Of a stretch of 32,892 nucleotides of DNA, positions 4,005 to 16,959 are shown in pieces. The first letter of the stretch is position 1. Each line of letters starts with the position of its first letter. Position numbers and translations under genes: made by a program. The DNA is from Thermofilaceae archaeon (GTDB taxonomy: Archaea; Thermoproteota; Thermoprotei; Thermofilales; Thermofilaceae), in NCBI GenBank assembly GCA_026986905.1, contig JALSNQ010000016.1:1-32892 (forward strand). Reading direction: 5' to 3'. The notes beneath the pieces were generated by a model. It did no database searches. It was not told the DNA's origin and saw nothing but the letters and a program-made list of their open reading frames with translations.

Positions 4005-4742
4005 TTGAACATACTTCCGCCATTATATCAACGCTTTCAATATAGCCCCTATGAGCGCTTATATCTCGTGGCGTCGCTGGATATCTCGGAGGAGCTTGTA
4101 GAGAAAATGGTCTACAACGCCTTCAGGAAGGTCTGGGAGGAGAACAAGTGGACAGGCACCCCTCCCCCGAGCAAAGTCTACGTCACCGAAATCACGCAGT
4201 GCCCCCTTAAAGCGTGGCTAGCAAGAGCCATCGGGGAGAACATACGGGAAGAGAAAATGATCATACTTCTCCTAGGCGACGACGTGCACTACATAATGCA
4301 GGATAATTTTCCGCTGGGAGAGGGAGAGAAGAGGTTTGAAAAAGAGTATAACGGCGTCACCATAGTCGGCCGCGTCGACAGGCTCATGGGGGACATCATC
4401 CTAGAGTTCAAGACCGCCGCAGGCATACCGAAGGAGCCGCGCAGCCACCACGTCGATCAGATGCAGCTCTACTTCTGGCTCTCCGGGAAGGAAAGGGGGT
4501 TTATCGTCTACGTGTCGAAAACCAACGGGAAGGTGAAGGCGTTCGAGGTTAAAAGAGACGAGGAGAGGATACGCTCGCTGCTGGACAAGGCCGTGAGGCT
4601 CAGCGAGAGTCTATCCTCAAGCACGCCTCCAGAGCCCCACCTCGACGAAAGTGAGAAGTGGCAGTGCAGGTACTGCGAGTTCACCGACTACTGCCCCTAT
4701 CTGAGGAGCCGAGGAAGCGGAGAAGGCCGCCCCTCGATTTAA
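4005..4742 (+). CDS. Cas4-like PD-(D/E)XK exonuclease with iron-sulfur cluster cysteines
   Basis: This belongs to the Cas4/RecB-like family, nucleases that bind a 4Fe-4S cluster through four cysteines. Those cysteines are visible: C66 (ITQCPLKAW) and C221, C224, C230 (WQCRYCEFTDYC). The nuclease core shows H95 (GDDVHYIMQ), D125 (GRVDRLMG), E134 and K136 (LEFKTA), and the QMQLY helix at 152-156. No CRISPR array or other cas gene is in the window, so a general repair role is as likely as spacer acquisition. The start TTG 4005 is about 21 bases after a TATA-like box (3981-3987), which fits a leaderless transcript. ATG 4107 is an alternative, since the first 34 residues look poorly conserved. The last 62 bases overlap the convergent nucS gene. 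Confidence 0.85.
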   Translation: MNILPPLYQRFQYSPYERLYLVASLDISEELVEKMVYNAFRKVWEENKWTGTPPPSKVYVTEITQCPLKAWLARAIGENIREEKMIILLLGDDVHYIMQDNFPLGEGEKRFEKEYNGVTIVGRVDRLMGDIILEFKTAAGIPKEPRSHHVDQMQLYFWLSGKERGFIVYVSKTNGKVKAFEVKRDEERIRSLLDKAVRLSESLSSSTPPEPHLDESEKWQCRYCEFTDYCPYLRSRGSGEGRPSI

Positions 4743-7897: not shown

Positions 7898-8977
7898 TTA
7901 CATCCCGGTAGCTTCCAGGTAGTCCTCGTAGATGCTCCTCCACCCGCTCTCCGTGTATATCCTAGAGAACGGCCTGCTCGCATAGTAGCTGAGTATAAGT
8001 TCCTCCTCGAACCTCTTCGCGAATCTAAGCGAGAAGCGCTTGGAAAGCTTGCCAAGAGCCTCCTCCCTGTCAGGAGGTAGATAGGTTAGCACCACTAGGC
8101 TGTCGCGCTGGTTTATAGGCCGCGCCGTGAATACCGTGGGGTACATCGTCCTGTAGAACTCCTCTACGACGTCGACGTCTTCTCCATCGTAGATGAGGAG
8201 CCTCGGCTCAAACCGTTTTCCCACACCCTTCCACATAACAATGTTGTATTTCCAGATGGGGAGGACGTGGTTCACGTAGTGGTAGTGTAGAACCTGCCTG
8301 TAAAGGCCGTGGCGCTTAGCTATACTACTTATACTCACAAAGGCGTCGGCGAGCTTGGAGTCCAGTATAGTCACGTCGTACTCGTCCATGTCCACATAGT
8401 ACACGTCGCTGCCCGCGCCTCCCTGCCTATCCCGTACCTTCAGGGAAGCTAGGAACCTTTTAAGAGAATCTCTCCCGTCAAATCTCTCGAGCAGATACTC
8501 TATGAATATGCTCGCCACCTCGTTTACCGTGAATGTCTCCCCTAGCCCGTCGCGCTCCGCGAGGAAGTCTATGAACGCCGTGTTCCACCCCCTTACCTCC
8601 CCCAAGGTATAGAACTTGCCCCCGCCGCTGAACGCTTTCCTGGAAAACTCGGGCAGTGACCTCTTATCCGCCAACGCTACGTAGAGGAAACCGCTACCCC
8701 TAGACTTGAGATGGAGGAAAAAGTGGGGTATCTTCTTCACGAAAGAGAACATCTCCCCCTCGGAGAGGATGAATATCAGCGACAAGCCTATCTTAGGGAG
8801 ATCTGGGAAGAAGACTAGTATCCCAAGCTCGTTGAGCCGCCTAGCTACATCTCTAACATACTTTCTCGAAAAACCCGTCCGCCTGGCCGCTTCCGAGAGA
8901 GAGGGGGAACTTGTAAGAGCCGTGAGAACCTTCAGCTCGTCCCTCGAAAGCTCGACATCACCTGTCACAGGCTTCAT
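7898..8977 (-). CDS. transcriptional regulator with two helix-turn-helix plus beta-domain modules
   Basis: A 359-residue protein. The N-terminal helix-turn-helix (SRDELKVLTALTSSPSLSEA through RDVARRLNELGIL) is AsnC/Lrp-like in layout and is followed by alternating strands and helices (about 60-135). A second helix-turn-helix-like stretch (TILDSKLADAFVSISSIAKR) near 200-220 is followed by a second alternating region (about 245-325). I read this as an internal duplication of a helix-turn-helix plus sensor module; that is inference. The start ATG 8977 follows GGAGAGGGGGGCG, and a TATA box at 9008-9016 puts the transcript start near 8987, excluding TTG 8995. It is divergent from the MFS-DUF47 gene 115 bases away and might control it. 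Confidence 0.75.
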   Translation of the reverse strand: MKPVTGDVELSRDELKVLTALTSSPSLSEAARRTGFSRKYVRDVARRLNELGILVFFPDLPKIGLSLIFILSEGEMFSFVKKIPHFFLHLKSRGSGFLYVALADKRSLPEFSRKAFSGGGKFYTLGEVRGWNTAFIDFLAERDGLGETFTVNEVASIFIEYLLERFDGRDSLKRFLASLKVRDRQGGAGSDVYYVDMDEYDVTILDSKLADAFVSISSIAKRHGLYRQVLHYHYVNHVLPIWKYNIVMWKGVGKRFEPRLLIYDGEDVDVVEEFYRTMYPTVFTARPINQRDSLVVLTYLPPDREEALGKLSKRFSLRFAKRFEEELILSYYASRPFSRIYTESGWRSIYEDYLEATGM

Positions 8978-9007
8978 CGCCCCCCTCTCCGCCAACCAGC
9001 GGCGTGT

Positions 9008-9091: not shown

Positions 9092-10927
9092 GTGCAGGCC
9101 TTGAACAGGAGGCTCCTCGTCATACTTATATTATCCGCGGAGGCGCTGGTGGGCAGCGCCACTGGAGTCCAGAGAACCGTGCTCTCAAGCGTGCTCAGGG
9201 GCTACGGCGGCTTCCTACTGATACTGCCGATAATGAGCTTCGGCATATTCAAGGCAACCGCCGACGTCGTGGCCGGCCTACTCGCACACAAGCGGGGCAG
9301 GCGAGCAGTATTCGTGCTGGGAGCGGCAGTATACCTCCTAGGCGTGTCGACGATACTCTCCTTGCCCCCGCCTCTGAGCTTCGTACTAGGGAACACACTA
9401 GTGGGAATGGGGGAGGGCATAGTGTTCGCGAGCGCGGCGGTCGCGCTGACAGACGTGCTCGGCTCCCAGGCCTCGTCCCGGAGCTTCGGCTTCATGGAGG
9501 GATTCGCCTACATGGGCTACGGCGCCGGCGCGTTCCTGGGAGGCCTCTTCTGGCAACTCTACGGCCCCATGTCCGGCTTCACATACGCGGCCGCCGCCGC
9601 GGCGGCGGCCCTGGCGGCCACCCTGGCGCTCAGCGAGACCAAAGAGCTTGTGCTGGAGGAGAAACGCTACCGGTACGAGGCAGACGTCGAGGCCAGCGTT
9701 GCCCTCGGGAGTCTCCTGAGGAACCCTAGTATAGTCGCCGCCATGGCCGCCGCGCACGTCGCTAAGATCGGAGACACGCTGGTTTGGGCCCTCATACCGC
9801 TGCTTCTGCTAACGCGCTCGGTGGGCTCGGTGGAGATAGGACTGATACAGTCCTCGATGATAGTGGTCTGGGCCTTAATGATGCCCCTGTGGTCCGAGCT
9901 ATCGGACAGGATTGGTAGGCGGCTGCTGGCCACGTTGGGGTTGCTCCTCAATGCGGGGGCCGTCATACTGTTCCCCTCCATGTGGGGGTTTCACCAGTTC
10001 CTACTCCTGTCGCTTATAATGGGAGTCAGCTACGCGATGTATTACCCCGTCCTCCCGGCGCCTGTCGTCGACGTGGCCCCCCTAAAGGTTAAGGATATAG
10101 CTGTGGGCGTCTACCGCGGTGTCCGCGACTCGGGCTACGCCTCGGGGGCGCTTCTCACGGGCCTGCTGTTGTCCTCGGGGAGAGACGTGGCCGCACCCTT
10201 CATATATATAGGCGCGCTGCTCGCCTTGACGGCAGCATCCTTCTCCCTGACGTTTAGGGAGACTAGGCCCGCGTGGCCCTTCTTCGACCTTGTGGTGCAG
10301 CACGCAAAGGTGATGAGGGACGTGATGGAGGCTCAGGGCGACCTCATCAGGGCGGTCTTCTCGGGGAGGATAGAGGAGGCCGAGGAGCACATGGCTAGGA
10401 TAAAGGATCTCGAGAGAGCTGGCGACCAGCTTAAAAGGGAGATAATGGGGAGGATCTGGTCAAGCTTCCTGCCCATGGGCGACAGGATGGACTTTGAGAG
10501 GCTTGTAGAGGAGCTTGACAGGATAGCTGGGGCCGTGCTTGAGAGCGACGAGAGGCTCCTAAGGATAGAGCCGAGCCCCATACTCAGAGACGTTGGGAAG
10601 CTCATGGAAGAGATGAACAGCGAGATCGTGAAACTCGCAGAGATATTCATCGAAAACCTCCACGCCCTCAAGACGTCTCCGCTCTACGCGGTGAATCTGA
10701 GCGTCGAGGTTGATCACGCCGAGGGGCGTGTCGATAGGATAAGGTCGAGGCTTCTCAACGAGATCAGGGCGCTTGTAAAGAGGGAGGACATAGACGTTCT
10801 TACGGCGATAGACCTTAGAGACGCGGTCGACTTGCTCGAGATGGCAGCGGACGACTTCGAGGACGCGAGCGACATTATAAGGATAATAGCGTACAAACAC
10901 GCCGCAACCCCCCTCTTCCCCGCATAG
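9092..10927 (+). CDS. MFS transporter fused to a C-terminal PhoU/DUF47-like domain
   Basis: A 611-residue fusion. Residues 1-395 form a major facilitator transporter: about twelve hydrophobic segments with the loop-2-like motif GLLAHKRGRRAVF near 61-73 and its second-half counterpart ELSDRIGRRLLA near 270-281. Residues about 398-605 are soluble and helical and resemble the DUF47/PhoU family, seen in the stretch EEAEEHMARIKDLERAGDQL followed by a segment in which DRMDFERL leads into a helix around ELDRIAGAVL. DUF47 proteins normally accompany PiT phosphate transporters, so phosphate or another anion is a reasonable but unproven substrate. The start is GTG 9092; TTG 9101 is an alternative. tldD follows after 53 bases on the same strand. 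Confidence 0.85.
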   Translation: MQALNRRLLVILILSAEALVGSATGVQRTVLSSVLRGYGGFLLILPIMSFGIFKATADVVAGLLAHKRGRRAVFVLGAAVYLLGVSTILSLPPPLSFVLGNTLVGMGEGIVFASAAVALTDVLGSQASSRSFGFMEGFAYMGYGAGAFLGGLFWQLYGPMSGFTYAAAAAAAALAATLALSETKELVLEEKRYRYEADVEASVALGSLLRNPSIVAAMAAAHVAKIGDTLVWALIPLLLLTRSVGSVEIGLIQSSMIVVWALMMPLWSELSDRIGRRLLATLGLLLNAGAVILFPSMWGFHQFLLLSLIMGVSYAMYYPVLPAPVVDVAPLKVKDIAVGVYRGVRDSGYASGALLTGLLLSSGRDVAAPFIYIGALLALTAASFSLTFRETRPAWPFFDLVVQHAKVMRDVMEAQGDLIRAVFSGRIEEAEEHMARIKDLERAGDQLKREIMGRIWSSFLPMGDRMDFERLVEELDRIAGAVLESDERLLRIEPSPILRDVGKLMEEMNSEIVKLAEIFIENLHALKTSPLYAVNLSVEVDHAEGRVDRIRSRLLNEIRALVKREDIDVLTAIDLRDAVDLLEMAADDFEDASDIIRIIAYKHAATPLFPA

Positions 10928-10980: not shown

Positions 10981-12426
10981 ATGACGTGGGAGATGGAAGA
11001 CCTTGTCTTCCACGCGGTAAAGAAGGGAGAAGAACTAGGCGTAGAGTACGTTGAGGCGCGCTACCACAAGCGTGGCACAAAGACGATTATAACCAGGAAC
11101 GGCGGGGTTCTAGGCCTCCAATCCTCCTTCGACGAAGGAATAGCCGTTAGGGTGCTCGTGGACGGCGCCCTAGGCTTCTCTTCGACGGAGATCCTGACGA
11201 GGGAGGGCGTCGAGGACGCAGTAAGGAGGGCTGTAGACAATGCGAGGAGACACTCTAGCCTCATGAAGGAGCCCATAAGGTTCAGCGAGGAAAGGCTCGG
11301 GAGGGCCTCTTACACGGCTGCGCAGAGGAAGGGGTTCGACGAGGTCAGCGATGAAGACAAAGTCTCCTATCTGGCCGAGATTTGGAGCAAGGTCTCCGGG
11401 GCCGTGAGGGAGGCCAGGGTCGCCGCGTTGATGGCGATGCTTTCCGAAAGCTTCGAGGAAAAAGTACTCGTGACTAGTGACGGGGCCTATGTGCGGAGCC
11501 TTGTCCCACGCCTCTCCCTAGGCTACAACGTCGTCGTAACTATACCCTCTAAGGGCACTATCCAGCGCTGGTTCTCGCACAGCGCTAGCGGAGGCTACGA
11601 GCTGCTGGACGAGTGGGGTGTCCACGACTACCTCCCGAGGGACGTGGAGACTTACGAGAAGATACTGCTTGAGGCGAGGAAGCCGCCGACGGACAAGCCC
11701 GTGGACGTCGTTGTGGGCAGCGAGATCGTGGGTTTAGTTGTACATGAGAGCTGCGGCCACCCCAGCGAGGCGGACCGTATATTGGGCAGAGAGGCTGCGC
11801 AGGCCGGGAAGAGCTTTATAAAGCCCGACATGAGGGGGTACAGGATAGGCAGCGAGCACGCAACCGTCATAGACGACCCAACCATACCGGGTAGCAACGG
11901 CTTCTACCTCTACGACGAGGAGGGCGTGCCCGCTAGGCCCAGGTACCTTTACAAGGAAGGCGTCATAAACGAGTTCCTCCACAACAGATGGACCGCCGCC
12001 GTTTTCGGGACTAAGAGTAACGCCGCCGCAAGGGCCAACGGGTTTAGGGGCGAGCCCATCGTGAGGATGGCTAACACGTACTTTAAGCCGGGGGACATGA
12101 GTTTTGAGGAGCTAATAGAGGACGTGAAGCTTGGTGTATACATGAAGAGCTACATGGAGTGGAACATAGACGACGAGAGGTGGAGCCAGAGGTACGGCGG
12201 CCTCGAAGCCTACCTCATAGAGAACGGCGAGCTCAAGGGTCTCGTGAAAAACCCCGTGCTCGAAGTCACCACGAAAAAGTTCTACAGCTCGGTGGACGCG
12301 GTCGACGGGAACCTAAGGTTCTACGCGGGGACGTGTGGGAAGGGAGAGCCAATGCAGGGGGTCCCCGTGTGGTTCGGCGGGCCGGACGTAAGGCTCCGTA
12401 ATATTATGCTTAGGGTGATTGCGTGA
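10981..12426 (+). CDS. tldD: TldD family metalloprotease subunit
   Basis: TldD is the catalytic half of the TldD/TldE heterodimer, a metalloprotease that degrades unstructured peptides and matures some ribosomal peptides. The 481-residue protein has the family zinc motif HESCGH at 255-260 (HExxxH) and a C-terminal GTCGKGEPMQ segment whose Cys supplies the third ligand in this family. The N-terminal half has the usual ARYHKRGTKTIITRNGG start. The gene begins with ATG 10981 and its stop overlaps the GTG start of tldE, so the two subunits are translationally coupled. Confidence 0.95.
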   Translation: MTWEMEDLVFHAVKKGEELGVEYVEARYHKRGTKTIITRNGGVLGLQSSFDEGIAVRVLVDGALGFSSTEILTREGVEDAVRRAVDNARRHSSLMKEPIRFSEERLGRASYTAAQRKGFDEVSDEDKVSYLAEIWSKVSGAVREARVAALMAMLSESFEEKVLVTSDGAYVRSLVPRLSLGYNVVVTIPSKGTIQRWFSHSASGGYELLDEWGVHDYLPRDVETYEKILLEARKPPTDKPVDVVVGSEIVGLVVHESCGHPSEADRILGREAAQAGKSFIKPDMRGYRIGSEHATVIDDPTIPGSNGFYLYDEEGVPARPRYLYKEGVINEFLHNRWTAAVFGTKSNAAARANGFRGEPIVRMANTYFKPGDMSFEELIEDVKLGVYMKSYMEWNIDDERWSQRYGGLEAYLIENGELKGLVKNPVLEVTTKKFYSSVDAVDGNLRFYAGTCGKGEPMQGVPVWFGGPDVRLRNIMLRVIA

Positions 12427-13766
12427 TGATTAGGGATGAACTGCTCGGTGTTGGGGAGCGTATAGTTAAGAGGGGGCTTGAGAAGGGCTTCGACGAGGTA
12501 GCGGTAAGGGCAGACTACTACGACGCCGTAATGGTAAAGTTCGCAAATAGCGAGCCCAGCGTGGTGCAGTCGTGGAGGGAGAGGGAGGTCGGCGTCTACG
12601 TCTCAAAGAACGGCCGTATACTGGGCACAAGCGGCTCCGTGGAGTCGCTGGGAGACGTTGAAGCGATACTGGATAAGCTCTCGGGGGTGGCGGACAAGAT
12701 ACCCGAGTCTATGCTTTACGCCCCCTTACCCGAGCCCTCGGAGATAAGCTTCATGGATAACCTGGTCGACGATAGAGTTCTGGGAGTGGTTAAGGATCCT
12801 TCCGACGTGTCGGAGCTTATAGTTGAGGCCGTGCAGAGGCGGCCTATAGACTACTTCGCTGGTATGTTCGAGGCGGCCTACACGGCACGGGCCTTGGTGA
12901 CGAGCAAGGGTGCAAGGCTCTTCGAGGATGGGACATATATTAAAAGCTATATACGGGCCTTCGCAGGCGAGGGCTCGGGGCAGTGGTCCCTGGGCTCACG
13001 CCGCCTCGATAAAAAGAAGATAGAGGACATGGCTGAAACCGCTGCAAGGTATGCCGTCGAGGCGCGTAGCCCCGTAGAAGTGGAGCCTGGTGTCTACGAC
13101 ATAGTGCTCTCGCCCATGGTGGCTGGCAACCTCTTCAACTATGTGACGAGAATGGCGTCCGCGCTAAGCGTCCTCATGGGCATGTCCATCTTCGCCTCCA
13201 AGAAGCCCGGCGATAAGGTCGCCTCGGAGAAACTCACCATAATAGATGATCCCCGTAACCCGGAGCTGCCTAACTCTTGGTCGTTCGACGACGAGGGCGT
13301 TGAAACCTACTCTAAGCCCATTATAGAGAGGGGGGTCTTCAAAACTCTACTCCACAACTCCAAGACGGCCGCAAAGATGGGCGGCAAGACCACCGGCAAC
13401 GCGGGCCTTTTAAGCCCACACCCCTGGAATATGAGTATCCCGGCCGGCGACCGCGACTTAGAAGAACTGATAGGCGACGTGAAGAACGGGTTCCTGGTGA
13501 CAAATAACTGGTATACAAGGTTGCAGAACTACGTGGAGGGCACCTTCTCCACCATAACCAGGGACGCAATCCTAATAATAAGAAACGGCGAGATAACGGG
13601 CTCAGCAAAGAAGTTCCGCATAGCCGACACCTTCCCAAGGATACTCGGGAACATAGAGGCGCTCGGCAAAAACCTCTACGACATTTACTGGTGGGAGGTA
13701 GAACTCCCCTCACGCCTACCCTACGTCCTGGTACGCGACGTCCACACGTCAAAGCATACGGGTTAA
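12423..13766 (+). CDS. tldE: TldE (PmbA) family protease subunit
   Basis: The partner subunit of TldD, 447 residues, in the same family but lacking the HExxxH zinc motif, as expected for TldE/PmbA. Recognisable segments are the N-terminal ADYYDAVMVKFANSEPSVVQ and the region LTIIDDPRNPELPNSWSFDD, which in TldE leads up to the dimer-facing domain, and a Gly-rich GGKTTGNAGLL. The start is GTG 12423, overlapping the TldD stop by four bases; ATG 12426 follows directly. It ends 24 bases from the convergent radical SAM gene, with a T-run at 13786-13791. Confidence 0.93.
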   Translation: MMIRDELLGVGERIVKRGLEKGFDEVAVRADYYDAVMVKFANSEPSVVQSWREREVGVYVSKNGRILGTSGSVESLGDVEAILDKLSGVADKIPESMLYAPLPEPSEISFMDNLVDDRVLGVVKDPSDVSELIVEAVQRRPIDYFAGMFEAAYTARALVTSKGARLFEDGTYIKSYIRAFAGEGSGQWSLGSRRLDKKKIEDMAETAARYAVEARSPVEVEPGVYDIVLSPMVAGNLFNYVTRMASALSVLMGMSIFASKKPGDKVASEKLTIIDDPRNPELPNSWSFDDEGVETYSKPIIERGVFKTLLHNSKTAAKMGGKTTGNAGLLSPHPWNMSIPAGDRDLEELIGDVKNGFLVTNNWYTRLQNYVEGTFSTITRDAILIIRNGEITGSAKKFRIADTFPRILGNIEALGKNLYDIYWWEVELPSRLPYVLVRDVHTSKHTG

Positions 13767-13790: not shown

Positions 13791-14564
13791 TTACTTTATC
13801 CTCTTAGCGCCGTCGGCCAGGGTTCTAGCCCATACCTCGAAGCCGGGCAGCTCTACGCGGCGCGCGGCCTCGTACACCTCCTCGGGGGGCGTGGCGGGGC
13901 GCTGCCTGAAGGCCTCGGGGACGCCCTCGTAGGGTATGAACTGCTGGACCACGTAGACGGCGCGGCCGCGGGGCTCGAGTCCTAGGGCGGCGATGCTCCC
14001 GGCCACCCTGGCGACCCCGGCGGCGTCGAGTATCCCGGGCGCCATGGTGGAGCGCAGCTCGAGGAAGCGGGCGTGGCGGGCGGCGAGCCTCACGCCCTCC
14101 CTGACGAGGGGGAGCAGGCGGGCCGCCAGGCGCAGCGGCAGCCCCGTGGCCCTGGCGTAGCCGGCGGGGTCGTCTAGGGGCGCCTTCACGTCTATCGCTA
14201 TGTGGTCTACCTCTACCTCGGAGAGGAGGCGCTGGAGTATACGGGGCGTACTCGCGTTGGTGTCGAGGCTCAGCGGCAGCCCTGTGCGCCGGGCGACGCG
14301 TCGGAGGAGCTCTGTGAGCGCGGCCGCCTGGAGGGTGGGCTCGCCGCCGGTTACGTGGAAGTAGTCGACGAAGGGGGCGGCGTCGGCGGCGGCCTCGACC
14401 ACCTCGTCGACGGGGACGCGCTTGGCGTCGAGGCCGCGGGCCAGCCTGGAGTTGCTGCACCAGGGGCACCTGAAGTTGCAGTAGGCGAGCCACACGGTGA
14501 AGCTGACGTGCTCCAGGACGTCTACGAGGCTGGTCTCACTCCAGCCGCCAATGAGGAGCTCCAT
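13791..14564 (-). CDS. radical SAM activating enzyme (NrdG/PflA type)
   Basis: A 257-residue radical SAM protein with the cluster motif CNFRCPWC at 29-36, the SAM-binding VTGGEPTLQ segment, and the substrate-side strand DHIAIDVKAPL. The start GGWSETSLVDVLEHVSFTVW is typical of the group annotated as anaerobic ribonucleotide reductase activating proteins, which make a glycyl radical on a partner enzyme. No such partner is in the window, so the target is unknown. Base composition is striking: the gene is far richer in G and C than its neighbours, with Ala, Arg and Leu dominating. This may point to transfer. ATG 14564 is the start, and a TATA-like stretch near 14596-14604 lies upstream. Confidence 0.88.
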   Translation of the reverse strand: MELLIGGWSETSLVDVLEHVSFTVWLAYCNFRCPWCSNSRLARGLDAKRVPVDEVVEAAADAAPFVDYFHVTGGEPTLQAAALTELLRRVARRTGLPLSLDTNASTPRILQRLLSEVEVDHIAIDVKAPLDDPAGYARATGLPLRLAARLLPLVREGVRLAARHARFLELRSTMAPGILDAAGVARVAGSIAALGLEPRGRAVYVVQQFIPYEGVPEAFRQRPATPPEEVYEAARRVELPGFEVWARTLADGAKRIK

Positions 14565-14632
14565 GTATACCCGGGTTAAACATAGCCGGCGGCGCGTATA
14601 AGCTGGGATGTAACGTTCTTTATAGCCCCTTT

Positions 14633-16714
14633 TTAAAGGAAAAAGGAGGCCGCATAGTACGCGGCTGCCGCCGAAATAAACGCCACAACCATTTCGTAGA
14701 GTACTAGGAACAAGAGATATTTTGCCTTCCTTATTTCCTCGTAGAAGGCAGCGAGCGTAGCTACGCAGGGGGTATATAGGTTCATCGCGATCAGAAAGGA
14801 GACTACCTGTGGTATCGTCAAGCCAAGGCTTCTAACGGCTGCTACAGGGTTATTTATACCAGTCGCGAGCACGATGGTTTCTACAAGGCCCTCCTTTGCC
14901 ACGAAACCCGCCTCGAACGCCAACGCGACGCGCCAGTCGGGGAGTCCCATGAGGGATGTTACAGGCACGAGTAGTCGGCCCAGGATTGCCGCATAGCTCT
15001 CCTCTACGGTAGCTGCGCCGCCGGGGCCATATGCTACGAGGTACCACATTATGACCGAGAGTGCCAGAATCACTGTACCCGCCTTCTTAAGGAAGTGCAC
15101 CGTGTGATCCCAGGCGTACCACCACACAACCCTTAGGCTCGGCTTATGGTAGGGGGGCAGCTCTATTATAATCTCGGGCGGCTCGTATCCCTTGAGGAGA
15201 ATCCTCCTGAATAGGAGGCTCAGCAGTACTATTAGGAGGCCGGAGTAGAGGTAGAGGAAGACCACCATTAATGCCTGCAAGAGAGGATTGCTGAAGAAGG
15301 CTGAAACGAAGACCAGGATCACTACCAGCCTGGCCTGGCAGGGTATCAGCGGCGCCAGAAGACTCGTGAGAAGTTTCTCCTCGTCGCTCTCGAGTATCCT
15401 CGCCCCAACTATGGCTGGAACGTTGCAGCCTATGCCCAGCAGGAGCGGCAGCAGGGCCTTTCCGGTCAGCCCTATCCTGTGCGCGAAGCGGTGTCCGAGC
15501 ACCGCGAAACGTGCCATTAGCCCCGAATCCTCGAGCACGCTGAAGGCTACGAAGACCATGAAGATCAGGGGTAGGAAGCTTAACACGCTGCCTACTCCCG
15601 GTATTACGCCGTCGGCGACGAGGCTTATGAGGAAGCTCGGCGCGCCGAGGGCCGCTAACCATGACGCCGTCGCAGAGCTGAGCAGGTCGAAAAACTTGCT
15701 TAGAAGCCCTGCGAGGCTGTTCTCCTCTATCATGCTGGCGACACCGGGCATGCCCATATAGTCGAAGATGAAGTTCAGCGGGAAGCCCGTGTTTATCGAA
15801 AATATCACCAGTAGTAGGAAGAGCATGAGGGAGAGCGCAGCCAGAGGCCCTACATGGGGGTGGAGGAATATGTTGTCGAGGGTCTCCGTGAGCTCCGGCT
15901 CGGCGACGCTAGCCTTTTCCAAGACAGCCGAGACAACCCTCTGTATAAACTCGTATCTCGCGCTGACCGCGATGAGCTCCGGTGGCGACCCAAGCTTCCT
16001 CTCAACGCTCTTCCTGGCCTCCTCTATCTCTCCGAGCACGTCGCCGCATCCCTCGTCTAAGAGTGACTTCTCGAAGGCGGGGTCGCCCTCTAGGAGCCTC
16101 ATAGCCGCCCACTCGAGGGGGTAGCCGCTGAGGCTGTGGCACTGACCTAGCTTCTCCACAATGTTTCTCGTGAAGTAGGGGAGCCCATCGTAGTCCAGCC
16201 TCAGCCTGGACGCCCTGATTCTCCCCTGAGCCACGTCCAGTACGAGCTCCACGAGCCTGTGGAGCCCCTCCCCCTCGATGGCCGATATGGCTACGGCGGG
16301 CGCGCCTAGAAGCTTTGAGAGCTTGGGCACGTTGACGTGTATTCCCCTACGCCTCGCGGCGTCCATCTTGTTCACCGCGACGACAACTCTATCGTAGAGC
16401 TCCAATACCTGGACGGCGAGGTAGAGGGTTCGTTCGAGCTCTATCGCACTAGTGACTACAACGACTACGTCGGGCTTCTCCCTAACAATGTACTCCCTGG
16501 CGATAACCTCCTCCTCGCTTATCGCGCCCAGGCTATACGTCCCCGGCAGGTCGACAACCCTAATCTTGACGCCATGGTGCTCCAGTTCACCCTCATATTT
16601 TTCAACCGTCTTGCCTGGCCAATTGCCGACATGCCTCCTCTCGCCGACAAGCATGTTGAACAAGGTACTCTTACCTACGTTGGGGGCTCCCGCGAGCGCG
16701 ACGGTTACCTCCAT
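14633..16714 (-). CDS. feoB: ferrous iron transporter FeoB
   Basis: FeoB imports Fe2+ across the cytoplasmic membrane. The 693-residue protein has an N-terminal GTPase domain with G1 GAPNVGKS (9-16), G3 DLPG (55-58) and G4 NKMD (115-118), then a helical spacer. The membrane domain has two Gate-type repeats: GVGSVLSFLPLIFMVFVAFS leading into a segment with GIGCNVPAIVG, and a C-terminal counterpart around FVAKEGLVETI and NLYTPCVATLAA. All parts are present and in order. ATG 16714 overlaps the end of feoA by ten bases, so the two are cotranscribed. Confidence 0.96.
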   Translation of the reverse strand: MEVTVALAGAPNVGKSTLFNMLVGERRHVGNWPGKTVEKYEGELEHHGVKIRVVDLPGTYSLGAISEEEVIAREYIVREKPDVVVVVTSAIELERTLYLAVQVLELYDRVVVAVNKMDAARRRGIHVNVPKLSKLLGAPAVAISAIEGEGLHRLVELVLDVAQGRIRASRLRLDYDGLPYFTRNIVEKLGQCHSLSGYPLEWAAMRLLEGDPAFEKSLLDEGCGDVLGEIEEARKSVERKLGSPPELIAVSARYEFIQRVVSAVLEKASVAEPELTETLDNIFLHPHVGPLAALSLMLFLLLVIFSINTGFPLNFIFDYMGMPGVASMIEENSLAGLLSKFFDLLSSATASWLAALGAPSFLISLVADGVIPGVGSVLSFLPLIFMVFVAFSVLEDSGLMARFAVLGHRFAHRIGLTGKALLPLLLGIGCNVPAIVGARILESDEEKLLTSLLAPLIPCQARLVVILVFVSAFFSNPLLQALMVVFLYLYSGLLIVLLSLLFRRILLKGYEPPEIIIELPPYHKPSLRVVWWYAWDHTVHFLKKAGTVILALSVIMWYLVAYGPGGAATVEESYAAILGRLLVPVTSLMGLPDWRVALAFEAGFVAKEGLVETIVLATGINNPVAAVRSLGLTIPQVVSFLIAMNLYTPCVATLAAFYEEIRKAKYLLFLVLYEMVVAFISAAAAYYAASFFL

Positions 16715-16959
16715 CCTCCCGTCACCTCGACAGGCTCTACGAGGATGCGGTAAGCGTGCCTCCGTCCTATAGCCAGGCGGGCTCCACCCCTCTCGACAAT
16801 CACGGGGCCTAGACTGTTGCTTACAACGCGCAGCACAGCGCCGGGATATACGCCTAGCTCGAGGAGACGCCTATACGCCCCCCGCCCCCTCACCTCTACG
16901 CGTACAACCCTCACCGTAGCGCCCGGGGGCGCATTTGACAGTGGGATCAGAGACGCCAT
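16705..16959 (-). CDS. feoA: FeoA-like SH3-domain protein
   Basis: A small (84-residue) cytoplasmic SH3-like protein that assists FeoB. Typical features are the N-terminal PPGATVRVVRVE, the RRLLELGVYPGAVLRV core and the C-terminal AIGRRHAYRILVEP strand. ATG 16959 is preceded by GTGATGATAC. A TATA-like box lies 40-50 bases upstream. The overlap with feoB shows they form one operon. Iron-dependent control is usual for such operons, but I see no clear DtxR-type palindrome here. Confidence 0.9.
   Translation of the reverse strand: MASLIPLSNAPPGATVRVVRVEVRGRGAYRRLLELGVYPGAVLRVVSNSLGPVIVERGGARLAIGRRHAYRILVEPVEVTGGWR

Follow-up and report, generated by a model that had tools for sequence, protein, structure and literature searches.

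Can a carrier of the MFS type and a DUF47 domain, a member of the PhoU superfamily, share one polypeptide in archaea and, if so, what would such a protein transport and how would it be controlled? These questions are raised by an open reading frame in a 32,892-nucleotide stretch of Thermofilaceae DNA (hereafter, the window). A 2026 survey that covers 926 bacterial genomes describes three regulator-transporter pairs, namely PhoU-Pst, PitR-PiT, and PhoU domain-NptA, and proposes for bacteria that every PhoU clade has a single transporter family as its partner (PMC13170248). PitR, a lone PF01865 (DUF47) domain, co-occurs with PitA in 97.8% of cases in that genome set, a figure in line with the view of the initial annotation that DUF47 stands here away from its usual PiT partner (PMC13170248). 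Further, NptA and a PhoU domain are found in one chain in 258 of the 926 genomes (PMC13170248). It should be noted that the set used for the PitR tree consists of single-domain proteins, such that fusions would drop out of it (PMC13170248). The coordinates of the features discussed below are compiled in Table 1.

Table 1. Position, strand, and basis of assignment of the fusion gene, its parts, and associated features (positions refer to the window unless a locus is named).
Feature	Position	Strand	Basis or remark
MFS-DUF47 fusion gene, 611 aa	9092..10927	+	one open frame; 12 other fused homologs
MFS transporter domain, residues 1-389, 12 predicted TM helices	9092..10258	+	Pfam, AlphaFold helices, Foldseek/VIA
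Codon 108 (TM4)	9413..9415	+	Glu in fused clade, Gln in 13 aligned unfused relatives of the MBL-linked type
TM7 cluster H222/K225/D228	9755..9775	+	invariant in fused clade
Short linker, residues 390-397, ETRPxWPF	10259..10282	+	alignment of fused proteins
PhoU_div/DUF47 (PitR-type) six-helix domain, residues 398-603	10283..10900	+	Pfam, AlphaFold, Foldseek
Codon 480, Gly in fused rows	10529..10531	+	alignment with free DUF47
TldD/PmbA-type gene pair	10981..13766	+	Pfam PmbA_TldD; conserved in L034; context, outside the fusion
DUF47-containing ABC operons	L045:319-5988, L048:5206-10860, L049:5311-10942, L050:6002-11604		

One open frame encoding two domains

The open reading frame begins with GTG, runs uninterrupted for 611 codons to the stop, and encodes one protein in which an MFS carrier is joined to a DUF47 domain. 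MFS_1 matches the N-terminal part (E=2.8e-29; 102.6 bits versus a Pfam cut-off of 33.4) and PhoU_div/DUF47 (PF01865) matches residues 399-600 (E=1.3e-18; 67.6 bits versus a cut-off of 24.4). With both domains above their cut-offs in one frame, the earlier claim that MFS and PhoU/DUF47 portions occupy a single chain holds, and the extent that had been assigned to the gene was correct. The full-length AlphaFold prediction, for which the 13 fused proteins served as input alignment, has a pLDDT of 91.6 and a pTM of 0.87 and places 12 long helices in residues 2-387 followed by six in residues 398-603, and may be regarded as a confident two-domain model. When folded alone, the C-terminal domain gave a pLDDT of 94.2. 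The first structure matches of this predicted fold in Foldseek were 3l39, 2olt, 2iiu, and PhoU (4q25/1t72), with TM scores of 0.75-0.84 to 3l39/2olt/2iiu, as is the case for a PhoU-like six-helix bundle. The same part of the protein matched the solved DUF47 protein 3l39 at 4.8e-8 by sequence and at 1e-15 by profile. The initial annotation had considered that the C-terminal domain might fall into another helical family; none ranked higher than DUF47/PhoU.

That a sequencing error or a misassembly joined two separate genes is exceedingly improbable, given that 12 of 397 Thermoproteota genomes, several of which consist of one contig, carry the same single-frame fusion in a total of 13 copies, and that the linker is conserved among the fused proteins, with E390, T391, P393, and W395 unvarying in 13 of 13 aligned sequences. 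This recurrence also rules out a missed frameshift between two genes, the other doubt raised by the initial annotation. Moreover, purifying selection is similar on the two halves: a comparison of the window protein with its homolog in the sister genome G024 gives dN/dS values of 0.133 (MFS part) and 0.138 (DUF47 part), and the values for the G029/G031 pair are 0.047 (MFS half) and 0.062 (DUF47 half).

Distribution and genomic neighborhood

The distribution of the fusion was determined through a protein search of 81 genomes of the class and a profile search of the 397 Thermoproteota genomes. Thermofilaceae, the family of the window, accounts for 11 of the 12 carriers (of 17 family genomes), with two copies in G024, and closed, one-contig genomes with conserved gene order are among them. 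The single carrier outside this family is a distant genome, G155, which belongs to another family and encodes a protein 29% identical to that of the window; its sister genome, G246, yielded a DUF47 match only in the profile search. None of the other 64 genomes of the class, all outside Thermofilaceae, encoded the fusion according to the protein search. Additionally, a scan of genome contigs with patterns from close relatives returned a Thermofilaceae MAG as its single relative, and no plasmid match covered more than 80% of the fusion query. The second copy in G024 (L035:1517-3325) is diverged, with 42% identity to the window protein, and its neighbors, which encode an HD domain protein and a nitroreductase, are unrelated to those in the window. 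A candidate for a second fusion, G015:C70 (open frame 605), was found to be a free DUF47 of 220 aa (L045).

In the window and in most loci of genera g1 and g7, genes are ordered AsnRS, FeoA, FeoB, radical-SAM, fusion, TYW1, HtpX, and NucS, and those flanking the fusion on either side are mostly in the opposite orientation. The FeoA-FeoB genes of the window, followed by an NrdG2-like radical-SAM gene, lie at 13791-16959 on the minus strand, an order found again at several of the family's loci. The gene at 7898-8995 (minus strand), which diverges from the fusion gene, encodes a protein of 365 aa for which a weak HTH match was the sole hit, and an unclassified open reading frame of the same size occupies its place in L034. 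A Cas4-like PD-(D/E)XK nuclease gene (4005-4742, plus strand) is located beside the NucS/HtpX genes in conserved synteny. In the window, the TldD/PmbA-type pair starts 53 nt downstream of the fusion gene; the pair was seen in this place in the genus of the window only, and it is possible that the pair and the fusion gene are co-transcribed. In genus g7 the fusion gene stands alone, and no conserved operon partner that points to a substrate was found across the fusion loci compared.

The proximity of FeoA/FeoB, separated from the fusion by a few genes both in the window and at the majority of g1/g7 loci, together with the ability of PhoU-family domains to bind metals, might suggest a role in iron or metal homeostasis in which DUF47 senses iron and the MFS half transports either a complex of metal and anion or a chelator. 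Such a role is improbable, as the Feo genes are encoded on the opposite strand beyond intervening genes, as the fusion has other neighbors in G020, G023, the second G024 copy, and G155, and as the syntenic locus in G034 is without FeoB. The shared gene order may reflect slow rearrangement only, and FeoAB was rejected as an operon partner, the association being one of synteny across opposite strands.

Affinities of the MFS half

The N-terminal half has the 12 TM helices, the Pfam score, and the fold of an MFS protein. In a tree that omitted the near-identical fused copy L039 and four of the eight f32 loci, the 12 fused MFS sequences formed one clade with support of 98/98. The closest unfused relatives are MFS proteins of ~360-440 aa from the archaeal families f32 and f54 and from bacterial plasmids, and the models that score best for these relatives are of the efflux type; the match of the MFS part of the fusion to NorA is weak (1.2e-6). 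Loci L100-L105, L088-L091, L093, L094, L096, L097, and L086 contain an MFS subfamily that usually adjoins an MBL-fold hydrolase on bacterial plasmids and in archaea. Among plasmid relatives, an MBL-fold gene is directly upstream in all six that were inspected (of 17 MFS-type plasmid matches), and genes for ArsR/SmtB, DsrE, rhodanese, or TauE recur nearby. An MBL-cluster gene is likewise close by in each of the eight f32 loci fetched, with one member of the cluster confirmed by Pfam.

The MBL-linked MFS of Deinococcus aligns with the fused MFS over its full length (hhalign; 380 columns, E=4.3e-37). Members of this subfamily, from plasmids of Deinococcus, Rhodococcus, Bradyrhizobium, and others and from f32 and f54, share K54, E136, R342, R345, and D346 with the fusion, and R28 is also found in most of their rows. 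By full-length homology and a shared charged signature, the MFS half belongs with this usually MBL-adjacent subfamily, whose other members are unfused, and not with phosphate carriers of the OPA or NptA kind. The residues R28, K54, E108, E136, H222, K225, D228, R342, and D346 are identical in all 13 fused proteins, and this charged set appears compatible with an ionic substrate.

It is possible that the MBL-linked subfamily exports sulfur compounds or toxic oxyanions. Together with the full-length match, the hydrolase, ArsR/SmtB, and sulfur-related genes around the plasmid and f32 relatives could indicate that the cargo exported by the fusion is a sulfur oxyanion or some other toxic small molecule, with DUF47 acting as a metal or structural module that has no tie to phosphate. 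This interpretation is rather unlikely, however, as the relatives are tied to sulfur by gene context only and as none of the nine other genes scanned near the fusion in the window encodes an MBL fold. Moreover, the relatives lack DUF47 and in most rows have Q108, L222, and Q264, in contrast to E108, H222, and M264 in the fusion; these residues are peculiar to the fused clade, and its substrate may therefore differ from that of the MBL-linked proteins.

A relationship with the OPA family (GlpT, SLC37A4) was also considered. The fusion and this family have the MFS fold in common, but a comparison with GlpT produced only a 114-column half-repeat match (E=5e-5) and no full-length homology, such that OPA/GlpT membership is unsupported. 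Among VIA structure matches, SLC37A4 ranked first (Z 42.4; 2.5 A over 371 residues), followed by OxlT (Z 40.8) and VMAT2 (Z 40.7). The SLC37A4 score was not taken as evidence of substrate because other MFS families score almost as well, with OxlT and VMAT2 only about 2 Z lower; matches of this kind are common to the MFS fold and pick no substrate.

The DUF47 half, phosphate supply, and a proposed function

The C-terminal 200 residues of the fusion resemble PitR/DUF47 proteins (PF01865) in family score, six-helix fold, and most acidic ligand positions. PhoU-family domains bind metals via acidic motifs, and E441, D445, D476, E544, D548, E583, D587, and D594, which are invariant in all 13 fused proteins, may serve as metal ligands. 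PitR/DUF47 differs from the fusion in being a separate gene beside pitA and in having Asp480: all 13 fused proteins carry Gly at this position, whereas 20 of the 21 free DUF47 rows carry Asp and the remaining one Ala (two of the 21, L032 and L033, look aberrant). The equivalent residue is Asp in the alignment with 3l39 and Asn in that with 2iiu. Gly480 could denote an impaired metal site. In DUF47 trees, all 13 fused rows came together in only 30% of bootstrap trees in the first analysis (after removal of L032 and L033) and in 8% in the second (after removal also of the long-branched L022 and L106). Forcing these rows into one group in the second analysis cost 0.44 log units (p-AU 0.43), such that a single origin of the fused DUF47 domains is compatible with the tree but not supported by it, and the G155 domain was not firmly placed.

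Free DUF47 proteins of the same archaeal family have partners of more than one kind. PiT is encoded by three of the 17 family genomes (G000, G024, and G023), in each case beside a free DUF47; no PiT was found among the window genes scanned, and the fusion is not a separate gene accompanying PiT, as PitR is. Another free DUF47 is found inside an ABC operon that encodes two ATPases, the DUF47 protein, an SBP_bac_11 protein, and a fused permease of the molybdate/sulfate type. The family scan covered the proteins of one such operon, L048, whose fused permease scores just above the molybdate-permease cut-off; L045 is from a related family. An ortholog of this permease is encoded by one of the 11 fusion genomes (G020) and by four of the six other family genomes, and there is a broken copy in G021. 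The operons from genera g4 and g6 are like the fusion in that a member of the same family combines DUF47 with a transporter other than PiT but differ in that DUF47 is a separate gene and the transporter consists of ABC importer parts. DUF47 therefore pairs with several kinds of transporters in Thermofilaceae and, given its pairing with oxyanion-type ABC permeases, is not restricted to PiT. In g7, the fused DUF47 is the only one in six of the seven genomes, and G035 encodes a second.

A PiT or a strong PstB-like system is present in 10 of the 11 fused family genomes. The three PiT-encoding genomes are among these, and a PstB-like ATPase is encoded in all seven g7 genomes at 280-293 bits, below the TIGR00972 cut-off of 343.2 bits, with a PstS above its own cut-off beside the PstB-like gene in G029. 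Phosphate import being covered in these genomes, an exporter or a different substrate is favored. The initial annotation had proposed an anion, perhaps phosphate, as cargo; this is weakened by the other candidate phosphate importers in most fused genomes and by the MBL-fold hydrolases, often with ArsR-type regulators, that adjoin the nearest unfused MFS relatives. The fusion could alternatively import phosphate or another oxyanion and be turned down by DUF47 in the replete cell, as PhoU-family proteins accompany importers and NptA with its fused PhoU domain imports phosphate (PMC13170248). The genome of G020 (80% complete) is consistent with this, since it encodes the fusion with neither PiT nor a PstB-like match of g7 strength. 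An import function is nevertheless unlikely in view of the phosphate systems in the other 10 genomes and of the efflux-type models that best match the MFS relatives.

With a probability of about 40%, we infer for substrate, direction, and gating that the fusion is an ion-coupled exporter of an oxyanion, phosphate or a look-alike, gated in cis by its PitR-type domain. Because the C-terminus of MFS proteins is cytosolic, DUF47 would face the cytosol, where the 12-TM carrier would hold it on a fixed linker of eight residues. The carrier would then act as a relief valve through ion-coupled export of the cytosolic oxyanion, while the DUF47 bundle would sense how much metal-bound anion is present inside the cell and set in cis the balance between the open and closed states of the carrier, much as free PitR is supposed to act on PiT and the PhoU domain on NptA. 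More doubtful is the broader proposition that a PitR-type domain and an MFS oxyanion exporter make up a further control clade of the PhoU superfamily in addition to PhoU-Pst, PitR-PiT, and PhoU-NptA, a self-gated valve for phosphate or a look-alike in archaea, with the invariant Gly480 retuning the sensor.

Fusions of transporters with PhoU domains are already known from NptA; the pairing of MFS with a PitR-type domain would be a new variation on them. NptA-type proteins (PF02690 plus PF01895) are like the fusion in that a carrier and a C-terminal PhoU-superfamily domain share one chain, although the carrier family and the PhoU clade both differ, and PF02690 is absent from the fusion protein and from all 17 family genomes. 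By analogy, the MFS-DUF47 protein would work in principle like NptA. The initial annotation's view that the architecture is not commonly described stands insofar as no description of an MFS-DUF47 fusion was found among the literature matches listed and requires qualification insofar as PhoU fusions to NptA are common in the survey (PMC13170248). The fusion breaks the proposed rule of one PhoU clade for one transporter family, which is stated for bacteria in that survey (PMC13170248). The action of PitR-type proteins on their transporters has been difficult to resolve, the two being separate partners; a natural single chain, for which a two-domain structure is predicted with confidence, could open the contact between sensor and carrier to direct testing. 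The fusion also points to a possible route of oxyanion export in archaea.
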